A stretch of DNA of 50,381 nucleotides, from positions 1 to 50,381 of the IMG/VR virus record IMGVR_UViG_3300046007_011930; one strand, 5' to 3'. The notes under the pieces are model-generated. The model did not search any database, had not been told where the DNA came from, and worked only from the letters and a program-made list of their open reading frames with translations. The stretch comes from a virus. The position numbers and the translations under genes are program-made. Shown here piece by piece: positions 2-12,954 of this stretch. How positions within the stretch are numbered: position 1 is the first letter of the stretch; each line of letters starts with the position of its first letter.

Positions 2-592
2 AAACTACAGTCAACTGATATTGTTACTGCATTGTTCGAGGCAAGAAAAGCTGGCATTTTTACTTGGAATGAAAGTATTTCTACATATCTCGATAAGATC
101 AATTTGAATCAAGTGGTACGAACCTTTCTTTCTAATGAAAATCCACATTTCTTAGAAATTGATAGCTCTACAAACTCGATAGATTGCTTAGCCGATATAA
201 TTAAATTTACAAAACCAATCTTGTTTGTCATACCTGGTGGAAGTGAACTGCAAAAAACTGAAATGATTTTTGATTTTTTAATCAAATTAGGATATAGTAA
301 TGACGAAATGAGTGTAATGTTTAGATTACCCAATAAAGACAGTAAAAATTTCAATGATTTTGTGAGGTCTAATAAATTGAATAATCCAATTTCTGAAAAA
401 ACAAAATTCGTCTTAGTGAGTATAAAACTACCTAAACCAATCATCAGCAGTAAAATGAAATTTAACAGTGTAATTAGTCTTGGAAGAATAAATGTCCACT
501 ACACGATACGAGATTTTTTCAAAAATAGAGAAAATTTGATATTTTTTTGCGAACCTAATAAACAAAAGGAATTGAATTTTGTCAACCTGTAA
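2..592 (+). CDS. Hypothetical protein, 5'-truncated by the window edge
   Basis: The frame is open from the first base, so the gene starts upstream; the first possible internal start is a TTG at 32. The visible 197 residues end 14 nt inside uvsW, suggesting translational coupling. A segment near residue 70 (KPILFVIPGGSELQ) looks like a beta-strand plus loop of an alpha/beta domain, followed by another such unit (FVLVSIKLPKP). I do not recognise the family. It may work with the downstream helicase, but only position suggests this. Confidence 0.75.
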   Translation, partial: KLQSTDIVTALFEARKAGIFTWNESISTYLDKINLNQVVRTFLSNENPHFLEIDSSTNSIDCLADIIKFTKPILFVIPGGSELQKTEMIFDFLIKLGYSNDEMSVMFRLPNKDSKNFNDFVRSNKLNNPISEKTKFVLVSIKLPKPIISSKMKFNSVISLGRINVHYTIRDFFKNRENLIFFCEPNKQKELNFVNL

Positions 593-2033
593 AATTGTTA
601 TCAAAGATGAAGTCAACATCAAAATTGAAAATTTAGATCTTGATGCAAGAAAAGCTTTGGTACGAAAATTCAAGTATGAAGACCCCACTGCAAGGTATCG
701 ACCGGCCTATAAATTGGGTCGATGGGACGGTACTGTGAGTTTTTTTGGTCTCGGCGGAACTTCCTACATTTCCATGCTGCCACAAATTCTTGAATATCTT
801 GAAGAAAAAAATTACTATATAGAAGTTGACGATCGACGTAATAACGTATCCTTAAAATTTGACCAAATTTCTGGTGATTTTTGGGGAGAAAAATGCTGGC
901 CTAAAGGTCATCGGTTTGAAAGTCAACCAATTAGATTACGTGACGATCAAGTTATAGTAATCAATAAATTTTTAGAAAACCCTCAATGTATACAGGAAAT
1001 TGCAACTGGGTTTGGAAAAACTATTACCACCGCAACTTTAGCAAAAATATGTGAAAAATATGGAAGAACTATTACGATTGTCCCAAACAAAAGTCTTGTC
1101 GAACAAACAGAAGAAGATTTTATTAACTGCGGTCTTGACGTCGGAGTCTATTACGGAGACAGAAAAGATATTGGTAAAACACATACTATTGCAACTTGGC
1201 AAAGTTTGAATATTTTAGAGAAAAAATCTAAAAATGACGAAGAATTACTGTCATTAGCTGAGTTTTTAGATGGTGTTCAATGTGTCATGGTTGATGAAGT
1301 ACATATGGCTAAAGCCGAGGTTCTAAAAAAATTATTGACACAAAATCTTTCAAATGCTTGCATTCGTTGGGGACTAACAGGCACAGTTCCTAAACAAGAT
1401 TTTGAGTTCCAAAGTCTTCGTGCAAGCTTAGGCGAAGTTATAAATCGTGTAGCTGCACACGAATTACAAGAAAAGGGTGTACTGGCTAATTGCCATGTAA
1501 ATATAATTCAAACATCAGAATGGAAAGAATTCGGTAGCTATGCTGAAGAACTTAAATTTCTAGTGACTGATAATACTAGAATGACCTGGATCGCTAACCG
1601 TATAGCTAATATTTCATTAACTGGTAATACACTTGTTCTTGTTGATAGAATCGAGTCGGGTGACTTTTTATCACAAAAATTATCTAATAGTGTTTTCATA
1701 TCGGGCAAAGTAAAAACCAAAGATCGAAAAGAAGAATATGACGAAATTAAAACTAGTAACGACAAGATTATTGTGGCGACTTATGGTGTGGCCGCTGTGG
1801 GTATTAATATCCCTCGTATTTTTAATTTGGTTCTTTTGGAACCCGGAAAAAGCTTTGTTAGGGTTATACAATCAATTGGACGAGGTATTAGAAAGGCTGA
1901 AGATAAAGACTTCGTCCAAATCTGGGATCTTACCGCAGCAACAAAATACGCTAAACGACACTTGACAGAACGTAAAAAATTTTATAAAGAAGCCAAATAT
2001 CCATTTGAAATACAAAAACTTAGTTACGTTTAA
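579..2033 (+). CDS. uvsW: UvsW-like DEXH-box helicase (recombination, replication restart)
   Basis: A 484-residue superfamily 2 helicase, close to T4 UvsW (about 500 residues), which remodels recombination intermediates and R-loops. An N-terminal UvsW-type substrate domain covers about residues 1-110. Walker A ATGFGKT lies at 142-148, DEVH at 239-242, motif III as LTGT near 278, and a C-terminal motif VI QSIGRGIRK with the arginine finger. TTG at 579 is chosen because AAAGGA sits 8 nt upstream and because translation from there gives the full N-terminal domain. It overlaps the preceding gene by 14 nt. Homology is clear by motif order and length; T4-like function is inferred from the family. 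Confidence 0.93.
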   Translation: MSTCKIVIKDEVNIKIENLDLDARKALVRKFKYEDPTARYRPAYKLGRWDGTVSFFGLGGTSYISMLPQILEYLEEKNYYIEVDDRRNNVSLKFDQISGDFWGEKCWPKGHRFESQPIRLRDDQVIVINKFLENPQCIQEIATGFGKTITTATLAKICEKYGRTITIVPNKSLVEQTEEDFINCGLDVGVYYGDRKDIGKTHTIATWQSLNILEKKSKNDEELLSLAEFLDGVQCVMVDEVHMAKAEVLKKLLTQNLSNACIRWGLTGTVPKQDFEFQSLRASLGEVINRVAAHELQEKGVLANCHVNIIQTSEWKEFGSYAEELKFLVTDNTRMTWIANRIANISLTGNTLVLVDRIESGDFLSQKLSNSVFISGKVKTKDRKEEYDEIKTSNDKIIVATYGVAAVGINIPRIFNLVLLEPGKSFVRVIQSIGRGIRKAEDKDFVQIWDLTAATKYAKRHLTERKKFYKEAKYPFEIQKLSYV

Positions 2034-2877: not shown

Positions 2878-4287
2878 ATGAAATATAGCATCGTAGTCCC
2901 AACTTATAACCATTGTGATGATTTGTTGAAGCCATGCATTGACGCAATTTTAAAATATACCAATATGAGTCAAGTTGAATTAATTGTTTCTGCAAACGGG
3001 TGTGTAGATAATACTTTAGAATTTCTTGGTAATTTAAAAACAAAGTTTACTGAGTTAGGATTTGAAGATCATTTGAAAATTACATGGCACGAAAAACCAC
3101 TAGGATATAGTCGAGCTACTAATGAAGGAATTAAATTGGCTACTAGCGATTATATTATCCTAATGAGCAATGATTCAATTTTGCTACCTCAACCTAAACA
3201 TCGCTGGATTGAACAATTAGTTCAACCTTTTCAACAAAATGAGAATTGCGGAATTACTTGCCCCTTAAAAATTAAATCTGAAGCAGCAAATACTACATTT
3301 GGTGTATTTTTTTGTGTAATGGTGTCCAGGAAAGTGTTTGATCGAATCGGACTAATTAATGAAGAATATGGAGTAGGCGGTGGCGAAGATATTGAATTTT
3401 GTATAGAAGCAGAAAAAGCCGGTTTTGAAGTCTGCGAAATAGTTTCAAAAGAATTTTTGAGTAATATGTTAGTACATGTTGGCAATTTTCCAATCTATCA
3501 TAAAGGAGAAGGCACTGTACATGATACTACTTTGATTAAAGATTGGCCGAAAACATTGTTTAGAAATTACCTAAGGTTAGCAAAAAAATATAATAAAGAA
3601 TGGTACTATGCTAATGCAAAAAATATACCTGTAGATCACAAATCCTTAGAAGAACAAAATAAATTTATCTATGATGAAATTTTTAAAACAAATGCCTATA
3701 ATGTCGAGAAACATGAAATTGAGAACAAAATTGTAATTGATATAGGCGCTAACGTGGGTATGTTTTCGTTACTGTGTCATGAACTATCTGCACAAAAAAT
3801 TTATGCTATAGAAGCTCAACCTACTATCTATAAAATTGATCTGATTAATAATACGATTTCTCATTCAAATATTGATTGTTTTAATTTTGCTGTACTTGAC
3901 GATTTTGGAAAATTTGTCAAAATTATTGATCAGGGTGGATTGAGTAAAATAAGTGATCAAGGAGAATCAACTCCTACAATTACACTAGAAAAATTCTTAG
4001 TTGATAATAGAATTAATCATAATAATATGGTTTTAAAAATAGACTGCGAAGGTTCAGAATTTGATATACTTTTATCAACAAGAAACGATATTTTACAAAG
4101 ATTCGAAACTATCTATATAGAACTACATGGAGATACTCATCAAGTTTATAAAGATCCAAACATTGTAAGGAATAAACTTGTAGAAGCTGGATTTGTTTTA
4201 AGTAAACAAATGCCACTTCTAGGAAAAAATGAATTTGGAGAATGGATATCTTTGAATATATTTTGTGAAAAATGGAAAAGAGTTTAA
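2878..4287 (+). CDS. Fusion of family 2 glycosyltransferase and FkbM methyltransferase
   Basis: A 469-residue two-domain enzyme. Residues 1 to about 240 form a GT-A fold family 2 glycosyltransferase: MKYSIVVPTYNH at the N-terminus, LMSNDS as the DXD-like metal site, and GGGEDIEF as the acceptor-site acid. Residues about 270-469 are an FkbM-type S-adenosylmethionine methyltransferase: IVIDIGANVGMFS binds SAM, followed by AIEAQP and KIDCEGSEFDIL. Fusions of this kind usually build and O-methylate surface glycans. Both catalytic signatures are intact. A glycan on the virion, the host surface or phage DNA could be the target; the sequence does not say which. Confidence 0.9.
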   Translation: MKYSIVVPTYNHCDDLLKPCIDAILKYTNMSQVELIVSANGCVDNTLEFLGNLKTKFTELGFEDHLKITWHEKPLGYSRATNEGIKLATSDYIILMSNDSILLPQPKHRWIEQLVQPFQQNENCGITCPLKIKSEAANTTFGVFFCVMVSRKVFDRIGLINEEYGVGGGEDIEFCIEAEKAGFEVCEIVSKEFLSNMLVHVGNFPIYHKGEGTVHDTTLIKDWPKTLFRNYLRLAKKYNKEWYYANAKNIPVDHKSLEEQNKFIYDEIFKTNAYNVEKHEIENKIVIDIGANVGMFSLLCHELSAQKIYAIEAQPTIYKIDLINNTISHSNIDCFNFAVLDDFGKFVKIIDQGGLSKISDQGESTPTITLEKFLVDNRINHNNMVLKIDCEGSEFDILLSTRNDILQRFETIYIELHGDTHQVYKDPNIVRNKLVEAGFVLSKQMPLLGKNEFGEWISLNIFCEKWKRV

Positions 4288-6104: not shown

Positions 6105-6491
6105 ATGAAAGAAAAAGATATACTCAAAAAATTTTGTTATGATCATAACATAAAGATCCTTGATACAAACAAACGAGCATACACATATACTAAACTGAAT
6201 ACCTCATATTTCCAATATCCGAACGATCTAAATATTGTTGATAGTCATACAGTACAGGACACTGAACCACTATATACTATTGAAATCGCATTCAGTGAAT
6301 TAGAAAAAATTGCCGAGTTCGAATCACAGGTTTTTAATCATATGCGAGCTAAAGGGCATTATGATATGTTCAACATGATCATGGAACAAAAAGAACGTGA
6401 AAAAAAACTAAGAAATAATTATCCTGCTGTTCAAAAGGCTTACGAACAGTATAGTATGATGCTAAAATTAGCAGAAGGCGGTGATTTATGA
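6105..6491 (+). CDS. Small protein with conserved helical C-terminus
   Basis: A 128-residue protein from ATG 6105. An alternative ATG at 6078 has a better ribosome binding site (AAGGAAGG) but would overlap the previous gene by 25 nt. The C-terminal third is helical (HMRAKGHYDMFNMIMEQKER, then YPAVQKAYEQYSMMLKLAEG). The PAVQKAYEQY...L tail is a pattern seen in many phage proteins and echoes the tails of the proteins at 2601 and 4291. It overlaps the cupin start by 4 nt. Function unknown. Confidence 0.75.
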   Translation: MKEKDILKKFCYDHNIKILDTNKRAYTYTKLNTSYFQYPNDLNIVDSHTVQDTEPLYTIEIAFSELEKIAEFESQVFNHMRAKGHYDMFNMIMEQKEREKKLRNNYPAVQKAYEQYSMMLKLAEGGDL

Positions 6492-6844
6492 GATTAGAAG
6501 GATTTGTTGAAAAGGGTTGGGGACATGAACTTATTTGGGCTACTAATGACAAATATTGTGGCAAACTTTTGAAATTTAATAAAGGTGCTAAATTCAGTAT
6601 GCACTTCCATGCTACAAAAGACGAGACATGGTATATCTTGTCTGGTAAATTTCTTGTTAGACATATTGATACTAAAACAGCTACAATACACGAAAACGAA
6701 TTAAATGAAGGCAATGTTTGGAGAAATACTCCACTGTTACCTCATCAAATTATTTGTATAGCAGAAGGAACTATTATTGAAGTTAGTACACCAGATAGTG
6801 TTGAGGACAACTATCGTGTTATGAAAGGTGATAGTCAAAAATGA
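6488..6844 (+). CDS. Cupin-fold protein, sugar-isomerase-like
   Basis: A 118-residue single-domain cupin. Motif 1 has metal ligands H39, H41 and E46 (MHFHATKDETWYILSG), and motif 2 supplies H86 (TPLLPHQIIC). Small cupins of this type resemble the C-terminal domain of mannose-6-phosphate isomerases and sugar epimerases. It overlaps hldD by ATGA and precedes the ADP-heptose genes, so a role in nucleotide-sugar metabolism is plausible but not shown. Confidence 0.85.
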   Translation: MRLEGFVEKGWGHELIWATNDKYCGKLLKFNKGAKFSMHFHATKDETWYILSGKFLVRHIDTKTATIHENELNEGNVWRNTPLLPHQIICIAEGTIIEVSTPDSVEDNYRVMKGDSQK

Positions 6845-7623
6845 AAATTTTGATCACAGGATATAAAGGATTTATTGGTCAAAACATAGTTAACGCTCTA
6901 AAAGATAAACATGAATTAACATTGTATGAATGGGGAGACGATACTCCGGAATTTGAGGGGTTAGATTGGTGTATCCATCTGGGCGCAATTAGTTCTACAG
7001 CTGAAAAAGATGTTGAAAAGATCATGAAACAAAATCATGATTTTAGTTGCGTGATATTAATGGCATGTCAAATGGCTGGAGTTAATCTGCAATATGCCAG
7101 TAGTGCTAGTGTGTATGGTCTTAATAAAAATTTCAAAGAAGACGCTGCTAAAAGTCCTCAAAGTCCATATGCATGGAGCAAATATCTTTTTGATAGACAT
7201 GTAGAAACACATAAATTTAAAAATATATATGTTCAGGGATTCAGGTATTTTAACGTATACGGCCCTCATGAAGATCATAAGGATCAACCGAGTCCATATC
7301 ATATGTTTTCTAAACAGGCCCAAGAAACTGGGGTCATTAAGTTATTTGAAAACAGTGATAGATATCTGAGAGATTTTGTACCTGTTGAACTTGTTGTTGA
7401 TATTCATGAAAAATTTTTTAATATTAAGAAAACGGGAATCTGGAATGTAGGTACAGGAAAACCAACTAGTTTTGAAACTGTGGCTAAAACTATTGCAGAA
7501 AAATATAATGCAAAAATTGAATATATCTCTATGCCTGAGCACCTAAGAGCACAATATCAAGAATATACCTGTGCTGATTTAACAAAACTCCATAGTACAT
7601 TGAATGAAAAAAATTATAGTTAA
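6841..7623 (+). CDS. hldD: ADP-L-glycero-D-manno-heptose 6-epimerase
   Basis: A 260-residue short-chain dehydrogenase/reductase family epimerase, shorter than E. coli HldD (310). It should convert ADP-D-glycero- to ADP-L-glycero-D-manno-heptose. The NAD(P) motif GYKGFIG is at 7-13. HldD-specific segments follow: HLGAISSTAEKD, YASSASVYG, the catalytic Y-x3-K in YAWSKYLFD, GFRYFNVYGPHEDHK, LRDFVPVE, NVGTGKPTSF and IEYISMP. These agree with my memory of E. coli HldD much better than with generic epimerases. It overlaps the heptose adenylyltransferase gene by 20 nt, which fits a shared pathway. Confidence 0.93.
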   Translation: MKILITGYKGFIGQNIVNALKDKHELTLYEWGDDTPEFEGLDWCIHLGAISSTAEKDVEKIMKQNHDFSCVILMACQMAGVNLQYASSASVYGLNKNFKEDAAKSPQSPYAWSKYLFDRHVETHKFKNIYVQGFRYFNVYGPHEDHKDQPSPYHMFSKQAQETGVIKLFENSDRYLRDFVPVELVVDIHEKFFNIKKTGIWNVGTGKPTSFETVAKTIAEKYNAKIEYISMPEHLRAQYQEYTCADLTKLHSTLNEKNYS

Positions 7624-8005
7624 TGGAACCTTTGATATTTTGCATAGGGGTCATATAAACTTACTTAACTATGCTAAAAGCCTAGGTAATCAATTATTAG
7701 TTGCTATAGACACTGACAACAGGGTAAAACAATTAAAAGGAAATTCTAGACCTATCAATAACCAAGACGATAGACAATTATTATTATATAATTTAAAATC
7801 TGTAGATATTGTTATGACGTTTGATAACGAAAAGGACCTAGTTAATATCATAAAAGAATACAATCCTGATATTATGGTAAAAGGATCTGATTATCAAGGT
7901 AAACGAATCGTAGGACAAGAATTAATTCCCCAAATTATCTTTTTTGATTTAGTAAATGGATGCTCAACAACAAATATCATTCAACGTATTACTGATAGGC
8001 GATAG
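7604..8005 (+). CDS. hldE2: D-beta-D-heptose 1-phosphate adenylyltransferase (HldE C-terminal domain, stand-alone)
   Basis: A 133-residue nucleotidyltransferase. It has the cytidylyltransferase-fold signature NGTFDILHRGH, then AIDTDNRVKQLKG, DIMVKGSDYQG and the C-terminal GCSTTNIIQRI, all diagnostic of the HldE/RfaE adenylyltransferase domain. It transfers AMP to D-beta-D-heptose 1-phosphate, giving ADP-heptose. In E. coli this domain is fused behind the kinase. Here it is a separate gene placed before the kinase, the reverse order. It overlaps hldD by 20 nt and the kinase gene by 50 nt. Confidence 0.93.
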   Translation: MKKIIVNGTFDILHRGHINLLNYAKSLGNQLLVAIDTDNRVKQLKGNSRPINNQDDRQLLLYNLKSVDIVMTFDNEKDLVNIIKEYNPDIMVKGSDYQGKRIVGQELIPQIIFFDLVNGCSTTNIIQRITDRR

Positions 8006-8735
8006 TTGCATTGACGAATACAAGATTGGAACTGTGGACAGACTTAGTCCAGAAGCACCAGTACCTGTCATTAAACTTATAGAAGAATATACCCTACCGG
8101 GTATGGCCAGTAACGTATATTTGAATTTAAGGAATTTAGGATTATCTGTAGATTTTATTCATAATGAAGAAAAAGTAACCAAGACAAGATTTATTGATAA
8201 AAGATCCGGTCAACATTTATTAAGAGTCGATAATGAACCTAAAGTTTGTAATTGGAGCGGTAAAACTCCCGGTGCAATAAAAGAATATGATGCAGTAATA
8301 ATTTCAGATTATAACAAGGGATTTTTAACATATGAAAATATTGAAAATATAATTAAACAATCCTCTGGTCCAGTTTTCATAGACACTAAAAAAATCCAGT
8401 TAGCTGATATTAGCAGCAGGAATGTTTTTATTAAAATAAATGAATTGGAATATAAAACCGCTCGTAGTTTGCCTAGTAACTTGATTGTTACATTAGGTGA
8501 TAAAGGTGCTATGTTTAAAAATAATCTAGAAGAAATCATTGTACCTACAAAGTCTGTGGACGTAGTCGATGTTTGCGGCTGCGGTGATACCTTTTTGGCG
8601 GCCTTAGCATATCAGTTTTTAATTACTAAAGACATTACTAAATCAATAGAATTTGCCAATATAGCAGCAGGACTAACTGTTCAAAAACAAGGTAACTACG
8701 CTCCTACACTAGAAGAAATAGAAAATGGATATTGA
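7956..8735 (+). CDS. hldE1: D-beta-D-heptose 7-phosphate kinase (HldE N-terminal domain, stand-alone)
   Basis: A 259-residue PfkB-family kinase. HldE landmarks are GDSCIDEY, VDRLSPEAPVPVIK and SDYNKGFL. The second PfkB signature is DVVDVCGCGDTFLAAL, where most relatives have GAGD, so the Ala-to-Cys change before the catalytic Asp is unusual. It phosphorylates heptose 7-phosphate at C1. The ATG at 7956 lies 50 nt inside the adenylyltransferase gene; no closer start keeps the first strand (VLLIGD) intact. It is shorter than the E. coli domain (about 318 residues) and may be a compact version. Confidence 0.9.
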   Translation: MDAQQQISFNVLLIGDSCIDEYKIGTVDRLSPEAPVPVIKLIEEYTLPGMASNVYLNLRNLGLSVDFIHNEEKVTKTRFIDKRSGQHLLRVDNEPKVCNWSGKTPGAIKEYDAVIISDYNKGFLTYENIENIIKQSSGPVFIDTKKIQLADISSRNVFIKINELEYKTARSLPSNLIVTLGDKGAMFKNNLEEIIVPTKSVDVVDVCGCGDTFLAALAYQFLITKDITKSIEFANIAAGLTVQKQGNYAPTLEEIENGY

Positions 8736-9297
8736 TATTGATTTTCCAGATAGAACTTTAATCCTTAAAAAATTAAAGCATATCCCGGCTGCAATTATAG
8801 AAAATAACACAGTCAAAAAACATAATACTGGTGTATACTTTCACAATATACCTTTTAATCCATTAACCGGAACAGCATCTATCGATTATAAAGAAGCAGA
8901 AACAAGAGGATATTTCAAAATAGATCTTTTGAATGTTTCTATATATCAAAACGTAAAATCACCTGAACATCTAGATCATCTATTGAACACAGAACCTATT
9001 TGGGAATTGTTATTAGAAGATGAATTTACTGATAATCTCTTTCATGTAAATGGCCATGGACAGATATTACGTCAAATGAAACCTAAAACTATTGAACAAT
9101 TGGCTATGGTTTTAGCATTGATAAGACCAGCTAAAAGATATTTGATTGGACAGGATTGGTCTACAATAGAAAAAGAAATTTGGCTTAAACCCTCTAACAA
9201 CGATTATTATTTTAAGAAAAGTCATGGAATTGCCTATGCAACTTTGGTCACAGTACACATGAATCTACTATGCGAAAAATTTTTAACTGAGATTTAA
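8725..9297 (+). CDS. Miniature DnaE-like (family C DNA polymerase palm) protein
   Basis: A 190-residue protein that reads like an abridged bacterial DNA polymerase III alpha subunit. MDIDIDF (D2, D4, D6) matches the PDFDVDF catalytic motif of E. coli DnaE. KKHNTGVYF matches the NAGKHAGGVV region. YFKIDLLN (D67) matches KFDFLGL with the third catalytic Asp. LFHVNGHGQILRQMKP through ALIRPAK matches VFQLESRGM through ALFRPGP, and FKKSHGIAYA matches FNKSHSAAYA. The order is fully collinear but the fingers, PHP, beta-binding and C-terminal domains are absent. The activity is unknown. The start overlaps the kinase gene by 11 nt. Confidence 0.75.
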   Translation: MDIDIDFPDRTLILKKLKHIPAAIIENNTVKKHNTGVYFHNIPFNPLTGTASIDYKEAETRGYFKIDLLNVSIYQNVKSPEHLDHLLNTEPIWELLLEDEFTDNLFHVNGHGQILRQMKPKTIEQLAMVLALIRPAKRYLIGQDWSTIEKEIWLKPSNNDYYFKKSHGIAYATLVTVHMNLLCEKFLTEI

Positions 9298-9674
9298 TTT
9301 TTTGACCGAACAGCTCGAACTAATTGAATACTTTTTCTTTTAATTCTTTTTTCAGCAATTTCACTAAGATTGACCACTGGTCCAAATATTACATCTATAT
9401 CTTTGCTATTAAAGGTTTTGATTGCAAACTTGAAAATCTGCATTTCGTTTTTTAAAAAAATATTAATAGGTATTTTTCTATTGCTTTCCCACCACCAAAT
9501 TTCACCCATTTCTAAGAAAAATTTTCTATCTTCTCTATCCTTTATTACACTGATATCATATAAACTAGCAACATTTTCGTCAAGGTTGATGATTATACCA
9601 ACGTATTCTGTCTCGTTACTTTTTAAACAACTGATAAAAGGATAATTTTTTTGGAACTCTAATGGTGTAGACAT
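9294..9674 (-). CDS. Hypothetical protein
   Basis: A 126-residue soluble protein on the opposite strand, convergent with the DnaE-like gene (4-nt overlap of the ends). It alternates short strands and helices (YVGIIINLDENVASLYDISVI) and ends with a very basic segment (EKRIKRKSIQLVRAVRSKN) that could bind nucleic acid. I do not recognise the family. Its 5' end shares an A/T-rich intergenic region with the structural gene at 9693. Confidence 0.75.
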   Translation of the reverse strand: MSTPLEFQKNYPFISCLKSNETEYVGIIINLDENVASLYDISVIKDREDRKFFLEMGEIWWWESNRKIPINIFLKNEMQIFKFAIKTFNSKDIDVIFGPVVNLSEIAEKRIKRKSIQLVRAVRSKN

Positions 9675-10541: not shown

Positions 10542-11543
10542 GTGAACGATATTCTAATTACACTTTTAAATCTGTTACCGCCTAAAAGAAAAATCACACC
10601 CAGCGGTTGGACTAGTTTCAACGCGGTCTGTTGTCATCATAACGGACAAACACGCGATACACGAAAACGTGGAGGTATAAAACAGATCGGCAATGATAGC
10701 TTTCAATATCACTGTTTTAACTGTAATTTCAAAGCAGGATGGACACCTGGAAAACAGATCAGTAGAAATACTAAAAAACTATTTTTATGGTTAGGTCTAT
10801 CCGAATCTGATGTTGGAAAACTTAATTTAATAGCTTTAAAAATAAAAGAAAAAGCAGCAGTTACAACACCACAATCTATCAATTTAGATTTACATGAAAT
10901 ATCATTACCTGATAATACAAAATCTATAGACCAATGGGTGTTGGAACAAAAACCCCATGATGATTTATTAGATGTAATCGACTATGTGATAGAACAAAGA
11001 AAAATGAATTGGGAGTGGTATGATTGGCATTGGAGTGAAATGCCTGGGTATCGAGATAGAGTTATTGTACCATTCTATCAAAATCATAAAATTGTAGGTT
11101 ATACTGCAAGGAAAATCTCTTCGGGTAATCCTAAATATCTAACTGAAAGCCAATCTGGATACGTATTCAATATTGATAAACAAAATCTTGATAAACAATT
11201 TGTAATACTAACCGAAGGACCTTTTGATGCTATTTCTATCGACGGGATAGCATTACTGACTAATGAACCTAATAACGCACAGATAGTGAGAATTAATTCA
11301 TTGAATAGAGAAGTTATTTGTGTACCCGATAGAGATCGAGCAGGTTCTAAATTGTTGAACTATTGTATTTCAAATAATTGGTCAGTAAGTTTACCACCAT
11401 GGGGTGAAGAAATTAAAGATGTTGCAGATGCAGTAAAAAAATTTGGTAGACTTTATACCTTGATAACTATTTTACATTACAAAATTCAAGGCGAAATTAA
11501 AATTCAACTATTAAAGAAGAAACTTCAAAATCAAAATGCCTAA
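10542..11543 (+). CDS. 61: DNA primase, gp61-like
   Basis: A 333-residue DnaG-type phage primase that makes RNA primers for lagging-strand synthesis with the gp41 helicase. Zinc-binding candidates lie at C30, C31, H32, H33, C58 and C61 (CHHNGQ, then YHCFNCNFKAGW). The Toprim core has LTEGPFDAISI with the catalytic Glu and VPDRDRAG with the metal-binding Asp pair. The start is GTG at 10542, and the end overlaps the helicase gene by 8 nt. Length and order match T4 gp61. Confidence 0.93.
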   Translation: MNDILITLLNLLPPKRKITPSGWTSFNAVCCHHNGQTRDTRKRGGIKQIGNDSFQYHCFNCNFKAGWTPGKQISRNTKKLFLWLGLSESDVGKLNLIALKIKEKAAVTTPQSINLDLHEISLPDNTKSIDQWVLEQKPHDDLLDVIDYVIEQRKMNWEWYDWHWSEMPGYRDRVIVPFYQNHKIVGYTARKISSGNPKYLTESQSGYVFNIDKQNLDKQFVILTEGPFDAISIDGIALLTNEPNNAQIVRINSLNREVICVPDRDRAGSKLLNYCISNNWSVSLPPWGEEIKDVADAVKKFGRLYTLITILHYKIQGEIKIQLLKKKLQNQNA

Positions 11544-12954
11544 TACAAACTACTCGTATGATATGCAGAAATTATATCTAGAAATGTTTCTTTCAGATGC
11601 AGAAACCTTTATTCGCTGTCAGAACATTTTTGATTTTAAAAACTTCGATCAAAGATTACAAAATACTGCAGAATTTATTAGCGACTACGTTGATCAATAC
11701 AAGATCATGCCCGAACCACAAATTGTTAATGCTGCTTGTAAAATAGATCTGCAACAACTACAACTACCAAAAGAAAACTTTGATTGGTTGATGAACGAAT
11801 TTGAAAATTTCAGTAGACATAAAGGATTGGAAAGAGCTATTGTGACCAGCGCAGATCTTCTGGAAAAGGGCGAGTACGGCCCCGTAGAAAAATTGATTAA
11901 AGACGCTATTCAAATCAGTTTGAATAAAGATATGGGCACAAACTATTTTGAAGATCCTCGAGGTCGATTAGAAAAACTAAAAAGTAATAATGGCCAAATT
12001 AGTACAGGATGGCCCAGTGTGGACAAAAAGCTGTATGGCGGATTTAATAGAGGAGAATTGAATATCTTTGCTGCTGCTTCCGGGGGCGGTAAATCATTGT
12101 TCTTGGCCAATTTGGCCGTAAATTGGGCATTGAACGGTCTGAACGTTATCTATCTAACTTTTGAACTTTCTGAAGGATTAGTCAGTATGAGACTGGATAG
12201 TATGGTTACTGGTATTGGCACTAGAGAAATTTTTAGAAGCATCGACGACGTAGAACTTAAGGTAAAAATGTTGGAAAAACGCTCGGGACATATACAGATT
12301 AAATATATGCCCTCAGGTAAAAATGTTAATGATTTAAAGGCCTATTTGAAGGAATATCAGGTCAAAACAGGTCAAAAACCCGACGTTTTGTTAATAGATT
12401 ATCTAGATTTAATGATGCCTTTAAGTGTGAAGGTATCGCCCAGCGATCTGTTTGTAAAAGACAAATATGTCAGTGAAGAACTAAGAAATTTAGCAATGGA
12501 AACACAATGTATCACAGTTACAGCTAGTCAGCTGAATAGATCAGCAGTGGAAGAAATTGAATTTGATCACAGTCATATTTCCGGCGGTCTGAGTAAAATT
12601 CAAACAGCAGATAATGTTATTGGTATTTTTACTAGTAGAGCAATGAAAGAACGAGGACGCTATCAAATTCAATTTATGAAAACAAGATCCAGTAGCGGTG
12701 TTGGACAAAAGGTAGACTTGGAATTCAATATCGATACCCTGAGAATTTCAGACCTTAATGAACAGGATGAACAAAGTTTCAAAGAACAATACCATTCAAA
12801 TTCTACCCAATCCGTAATCTCTACTCTAAAAAGAACTAGTCAGGTTACTACTAGCAGCGACAACTCAGATAATAAAAATAAACAGACAAAAATAACTAAT
12901 AATGCTCCTATGATAAGAAGCATTTTGAATCAACTTAATCCGGAAAAAGATTAG
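11536..12954 (+). CDS. 41: Replicative DNA helicase, gp41/DnaB-like
   Basis: A 472-residue hexameric helicase of the DnaB family. The N-terminal helical domain spans about 1-130. Walker A is ASGGGKS at 181-187, Walker B is LLIDYLDL at 285-292, and TASQLNRSA is the polar H3 motif; a basic MKTRSSSG loop follows. The last 60 residues are Ser/Asn/Thr-rich and likely flexible. It overlaps gp61 by 8 nt, the standard T4-like arrangement, and unwinds the fork 5' to 3' on the lagging strand. Confidence 0.95.
   Translation: MPNTNYSYDMQKLYLEMFLSDAETFIRCQNIFDFKNFDQRLQNTAEFISDYVDQYKIMPEPQIVNAACKIDLQQLQLPKENFDWLMNEFENFSRHKGLERAIVTSADLLEKGEYGPVEKLIKDAIQISLNKDMGTNYFEDPRGRLEKLKSNNGQISTGWPSVDKKLYGGFNRGELNIFAAASGGGKSLFLANLAVNWALNGLNVIYLTFELSEGLVSMRLDSMVTGIGTREIFRSIDDVELKVKMLEKRSGHIQIKYMPSGKNVNDLKAYLKEYQVKTGQKPDVLLIDYLDLMMPLSVKVSPSDLFVKDKYVSEELRNLAMETQCITVTASQLNRSAVEEIEFDHSHISGGLSKIQTADNVIGIFTSRAMKERGRYQIQFMKTRSSSGVGQKVDLEFNIDTLRISDLNEQDEQSFKEQYHSNSTQSVISTLKRTSQVTTSSDNSDNKNKQTKITNNAPMIRSILNQLNPEKD

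Follow-up and report, generated by a model that had tools for sequence, protein, structure and literature searches.

A split, minimal form of the DNA polymerase III (Pol III) alpha subunit has been described from sequence in group 2.2 jumbo phages, in which an N-terminal NTP-binding protein and a C-terminal Mg2+- and template-binding protein are encoded by distant genes, with a family B polymerase alongside (Iyer et al., 2021; PMC7824862). Individual phage proteins also carry the annotation 'DNA polymerase III alpha', namely CBB_328 in CBB (PMC5259590) and gp316 in Atu_ph07 (PMC6102473). The available portion of the CBB paper takes CBB_328 as a truncated alpha subunit and draws no link there to a second gene (PMC5259590). 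By our searches, CBB_328 is the N-terminal unit (N-unit; PF07733), and the C-terminal unit (C-unit) of the same phage is gp287. In the literature searched, we found no experimental or biochemical study of the split Pol III proteins.

We analyzed a 50,381-nucleotide stretch of viral DNA (the window; IMG/VR record IMGVR_UViG_3300046007_011930), in which a first-pass annotation, made from the letters alone, had drawn attention to a small DnaE-like protein. In our best explanation, T4-related phages, most of them jumbo phages, have a minimal C-family DNA polymerase made of two subunits, and this gene codes for its C-terminal half, which binds the metal ions. Based on sequence comparison and predicted structure, we give this reading a probability of roughly 0.7. 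A split minimal Pol III is already known; we add here the precise position of the cut, the set of invariant residues, the finding that the steric gate is kept, the surrounding gene cassette and a 141-kb phage with both units.

The gene has an ATG start and 190 codons, and it overlaps the 3' end of an upstream kinase gene. All of the motifs quoted in the first-pass annotation are present in the protein (MDIDIDF, residues 1–7; KIDLLN, 65–70; HVNGHG...IRPAK, 107–137; KKSHGIAYA, 164–172), which matches phrog_11778 ('DNA polymerase') at 2e-70, plus two larger phage DNA polymerase families. The profile search against DnaE that had been proposed as a check came out in favor of the assignment: with the C-unit family profile, DnaE chains were the only matches in the PDB up to E = 10. 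The Pfam finger-domain model matched the window protein alone with an E of 0.003, below the model's cut-off, and matched 70 of 86 homologues at E ≤ 0.1 (best 2.9e-6). Judged from these profiles and from the predicted structure, homology of the C-unit to DnaE is close to certain.

Residues were mapped by profile-profile alignment against 17 bacterial DnaE proteins, that of E. coli among them, using E. coli numbering. We obtained three separate, collinear matches, which align C-unit residues 1–10 with DnaE 400–409 (P 1e-4), residues 54–136 with DnaE 542–641 (P 1.2e-7) and residues 160–174 with DnaE 753–767 (P 1.7e-3). The equivalents of the catalytic triad are D2 (D401), D4 (D403) and D67 (D555), identical in 86 of 86 aligned homologues, bearing out the earlier claim that a 190-residue protein carries collinear DnaE motifs and all three aspartates. 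D401, D403 and D555 are absolutely conserved across the C family, and D405 distinguishes DnaE from PolC, which has Asn at this position (PMC3919608). The C-units are of the DnaE type in this respect, with Asp at the D405 equivalent (D6) in 86/86 homologues; K65 (K553), R134 (R639) and H167 (H760) are likewise each identical in all 86. In E. coli DnaE, H760 of the O-helix has been modelled as the steric gate (PMC8485763). The position equivalent to S759 is Ser, Ala or, once, Gly in the C-units.

In profile comparisons, no segment of the 190 residues matches the PHP, thumb, full fingers, HhH or clamp-binding regions, in agreement with the first-pass annotation as far as the PHP and clamp-binding domains are concerned. 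The parts of DnaE without a counterpart are everything before residue 400, residues ~410–505 (thumb), residues ~643–752, including RRAMGKK at 709–715, and everything after ~775. The DnaE thumb segment preceding the counterpart of H33-x-x-G36 (Table 1) is also absent from the C-unit. The fingers had been called absent as well; most of them are indeed gone, but a stub is retained, consisting of DnaE 594–641 and of the O-helix that bears the steric gate (753–767).

Table 1. Positions in the window of the C-unit gene, its DnaE-like segments and its neighbors.
Feature	Position	Strand	Remark
UvsW-like helicase, conserved upstream neighbor	579..2033	+	
C-terminal unit of split minimal Pol III alpha, phrog_11778	8725..9297	+	190 aa
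First catalytic strand MDIDIDF, D2/D4/D6 = D401/D403/D405; protein begins here	8725..8745	+	profile alignment
H33-x-x-G36 in KHNTGVY, by-eye alignment with E. coli K510-H511...G514	8821..8832	+	H33, G36 invariant 86/86
KID motif, K65 = K553, D67 = D555 (third catalytic aspartate)	8917..8925	+	profile alignment, invariance
Residues 91–137 = DnaE 594–642, palm/fingers junction (PF17657-like); R134-P135 = R639-P640 invariant	8995..9135	+	
Residues 160–174, O-helix motif; H167 = H760 (invariant), S166 = S759, K165 = K758	9202..9246	+	
Convergent 126-aa gene, phrog_11637 (family without assigned function), overlaps C-unit stop	9294..9674	-	
DNA primase, conserved downstream neighbor	10542..11543	+	
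DnaB-type replicative helicase, conserved downstream neighbor	11536..12954	+	

An AlphaFold2 model of the C-unit, built from an 86-row alignment, has a pLDDT of 92.7 and a pTM of 0.77. It places DIDIDF (3–7) and KIDLL (66–70) on strands and forms a long helix from residues 165–189. Comparison of the predicted structure with the DnaE palm had also been proposed as a check, and again the result agreed with the assignment. In a Foldseek search against the PDB, every one of the best 14 matches is a Pol III alpha/C-family entry. The first eight of these have probabilities of 0.99–1.00 and TM-scores of 0.44–0.51 by query length; matches past rank 14 are noise. In BFVD, the top named matches are phage DnaE-type polymerases. 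The Foldseek match suggests that the three aspartates are clustered in the fold.

The start of the C-unit is informative about the cut. In most of 53 homologous ORFs examined, the in-frame stop is just a few codons upstream of DxDxD and the start Met is 1–2 residues ahead of the first catalytic Asp, and thus the gene truly begins at the catalytic strand; the isolate C-units have short N-extensions before DxDxD. Because the protein starts exactly at this strand, at DnaE 400, it is without the preceding nucleotide-binding GS-motif helix, and the GS motif is not in its chain. Instead, the part of the palm with the GS motif is encoded by a separate, co-occurring gene, and the description of the C-unit as a 'free-standing palm' therefore has to be given up. 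The product of this second gene, the N-unit, is a protein of ~175 aa that ends in VWGVGRGSSVASYVLYLIG...FKEFMR and matches E. coli DnaE 319–392. All 58 aligned N-units match PF07733, and GxGRGSS is invariant in 58/58. The next DnaE residue to be matched after 392 is residue 400, by the C-unit family, and in each of the 14 full-length DnaE ORFs hit by both profiles the C-unit match has its first residue exactly 7 positions after the last of the N-unit match. In these alignments, the two units together tile the DnaE palm, without the PHP, thumb, most fingers and clamp-binding domains. The model of the N-unit is less certain (pLDDT 88), and its best PDB matches, which are weak, are again to Pol III alpha. 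Profile comparison detects no DnaE counterpart for residues 1 to ~95 of the N-unit, even though the family has many invariant positions there, and this segment may represent a new domain with an accessory or interaction role.

Both units were found by profile in 8/8 isolates checked (Phosso, Paride, 121Q, Atu_ph07, SCTP-2, Slickus01, Vibrio 2.275.O and CBB), and in every case the two genes share a strand and are separated by 11–224 kb. A PF07733 search detected the N-unit in 5/5 isolate genomes first searched and in 6/9 metagenomic contigs, the three negatives all being <90 kb. The records with one unit only are metagenomic contigs of ≤200 kb. Among 50,697 phage records, the C-unit occurs in 91 and the N-unit in 86 (E ≤ 1e-16), with almost equal genus counts, and scans of IMG/VR yielded at least 596 confirmed stretches for the C-unit and at least 584 for the N-unit. 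The C-unit is a real, widespread small phage gene. As both units are present in the 141.6-kb genome of Alishewanella phage Slickus01 (OQ508957), 11 kb apart, the split system is not confined to genomes >200 kb. Among the loci fetched, there was no natural fusion of the two units, the only ORFs matched by both profiles being cellular full-length DnaE, and in no case did an N-gene lie about 6 kb or less from a C-gene. Among the matches listed for GTDB species, no C-unit was free-standing: at least 16 were confirmed, all within DnaE ORFs of 1034–1535 aa.

The expectation that phages of this T4-like type carry a family B polymerase was confirmed in 18 of 19 related records searched, and it holds in all eight of the isolates above. 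The first-pass annotation had called a DnaE fragment unexpected in such a phage. A split minimal Pol III had already been reported in 2021 (PMC7824862). Within the 50-kb window itself, neither an N-unit nor a family B polymerase was found, and thus the pairing of N- and C-units in the window phage is deduced from its relatives.

The C-unit gene lies in a conserved cassette. In loci with room for the respective neighbor, UvsW is upstream in 81/92, primase downstream in 104/109 and DnaB downstream in 79/88, and the same order is found in 121Q and Paride. A convergent small gene follows the C-unit in 99/125 loci, almost always with stop ends that overlap by 4–29 bp. The phrog_11637 gene of the window encodes a basic C-terminal tail, KRIKRKSIQLVR, and its 126-aa product is a possible partner of the polymerase enzyme. 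A DnaQ-type exonuclease was considered as a constant companion and rejected; PF00929 was found in only 5/13 genomes, which puts this enzyme outside the core.

Other parts of the window have features of their own. Between UvsW and the C-unit, positions 6488–8735 (+) hold a sugar-nucleotide cassette (cupin/mannose-isomerase-like, NAD epimerase, cytidylyltransferase and PfkB kinase), which includes an HldE-like pair spread over two genes; the PfkB kinase was represented by only 18 ORFs across the fetched loci. At 2878–4287 (+), a family 2 glycosyltransferase and an FkbM-type methyltransferase are fused in one ORF. From 15000 to 40000, GC content rises from about 0.29–0.36 to 0.42–0.48 and then returns to about 0.35–0.39, GC skew is reversed, and many small minus-strand ORFs extend to about 37 kb. 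The region could be a second module of the genome, inserted DNA or the mark of a chimeric contig.

If the C-unit were a functionless, decaying remnant of DnaE, its much reduced size would be accounted for. However, the family is under purifying selection, with a median dN/dS of 0.18 (892 pairs), 23 columns are invariant across 86 sequences, and the start and gene order are conserved. We rejected this reading, the chance of which we regard as negligible, as contradicted by selection and conservation. DnaE contacts its partners through its PHP, clamp-binding and C-terminal regions. These are absent from the C-unit, which speaks against a decoy or inhibitor that would take the place of the host Pol III alpha or sequester its partners, a possibility raised in the first-pass annotation and in keeping with the resemblance of the C-unit to host DnaE motifs. 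Moreover, the invariant residues are catalytic, and a decoy would not need them; the proposal was left without support and we rejected it as scarcely credible. As the catalytic and dNTP-contacting residues are invariant and dN/dS is near 0.18, the data argue for an active enzyme, neither decoy nor relic.

The compact, confidently predicted fold with all catalytic aspartates could be taken for a self-sufficient minimal palm polymerase acting alone, the leading idea of the first-pass annotation, but it is without the GS-motif helix, which a separate protein carries in every isolate genome checked, and we hold this to be very improbable. Alternatively, the two units might form a non-templated nucleotidyltransferase on the Pol III palm, such as a terminal transferase or a DNA- or protein-modifying enzyme. 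With no thumb and little left of the fingers, the grip on a template may be lost, and several nucleotidyltransferase-fold enzymes are template-independent (PMC11646218). Even so, such an activity seems unlikely: conservation is complete or almost complete for the steric-gate His and the O-helix, whose tasks in DnaE are to select deoxyribose and to close on the base pair, and the gene adjoins a primase and a helicase.

We therefore favor the two-subunit polymerase, and its parts can be graded separately. The N- and C-units are likely to assemble with each other. On binding, they would restore the DnaE palm: the GS-motif helix would come from the N-unit, and the Mg2+-binding strands and the O-helix with its steric gate from the C-unit. 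The assembled pair would be a low-processivity DNA nucleotidyltransferase and probably carries out templated DNA synthesis. Since the thumb is missing along with most of the fingers (RRAMGKK 709–715 among them), its grip on DNA would be weak, and with the clamp-binding region lost too, synthesis would be short-patch and not processive. The adjacent primase and helicase suggest primer extension or gap filling, and we tentatively propose this as the precise role: an accessory DNA polymerase or nucleotidyltransferase would cooperate with the primase-helicase module, leaving bulk replication to the family B enzyme. In a bolder version, for which the odds are somewhat less than even, the pair would be an obligate heterodimer, smaller than any known C-family enzyme, in which two separately encoded chains form the active site, and it would have a dedicated job, such as primer extension at the fork, beside the family B replicase. 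Counted against the two-subunit polymerase are this weak grip, the distance between the genes (11–224 kb), the first ~95 residues of the N-unit, which match nothing in DnaE, the lack of a natural fusion among the loci fetched, and the absence of an N-unit from the 50-kb window.

If the pair is active, it would set the minimum requirement for C-family catalysis, it would have one active site common to two chains from distant genes, and it would bring a bacterial-type and an archaeo-eukaryotic-type polymerase into one phage replication system. If the heterodimer is real, these phages would employ replicative polymerases of two unrelated families at the same time. With the residues and the cut now named, the 2021 prediction of a split Pol III becomes directly testable.

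Among known systems, the split Pol III of Iyer et al., 2021, comes from the same phage group, and the window protein, a standalone small homologue of the Mg2+-binding part of the DnaE palm, corresponds to its C-terminal unit. The difference is that the window, a metagenomic fragment of 50 kb, does not contain the gene for the partner. African swine fever virus Pol X is also a viral minimal nucleotidyltransferase-fold polymerase, with palm and fingers only (PMC11646218), but it serves as an analogy only: it is a single polypeptide of family X, a different lineage, whereas the split Pol III consists of two chains. Like E. coli DnaE (1160 aa), the C-unit keeps the catalytic aspartates, D405, K553, R639 and the O-helix with H760. 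Unlike bacterial DnaE, it is without the PHP, thumb, most fingers, HhH, clamp-binding, OB and C-terminal domains, and its palm is split over two genes.
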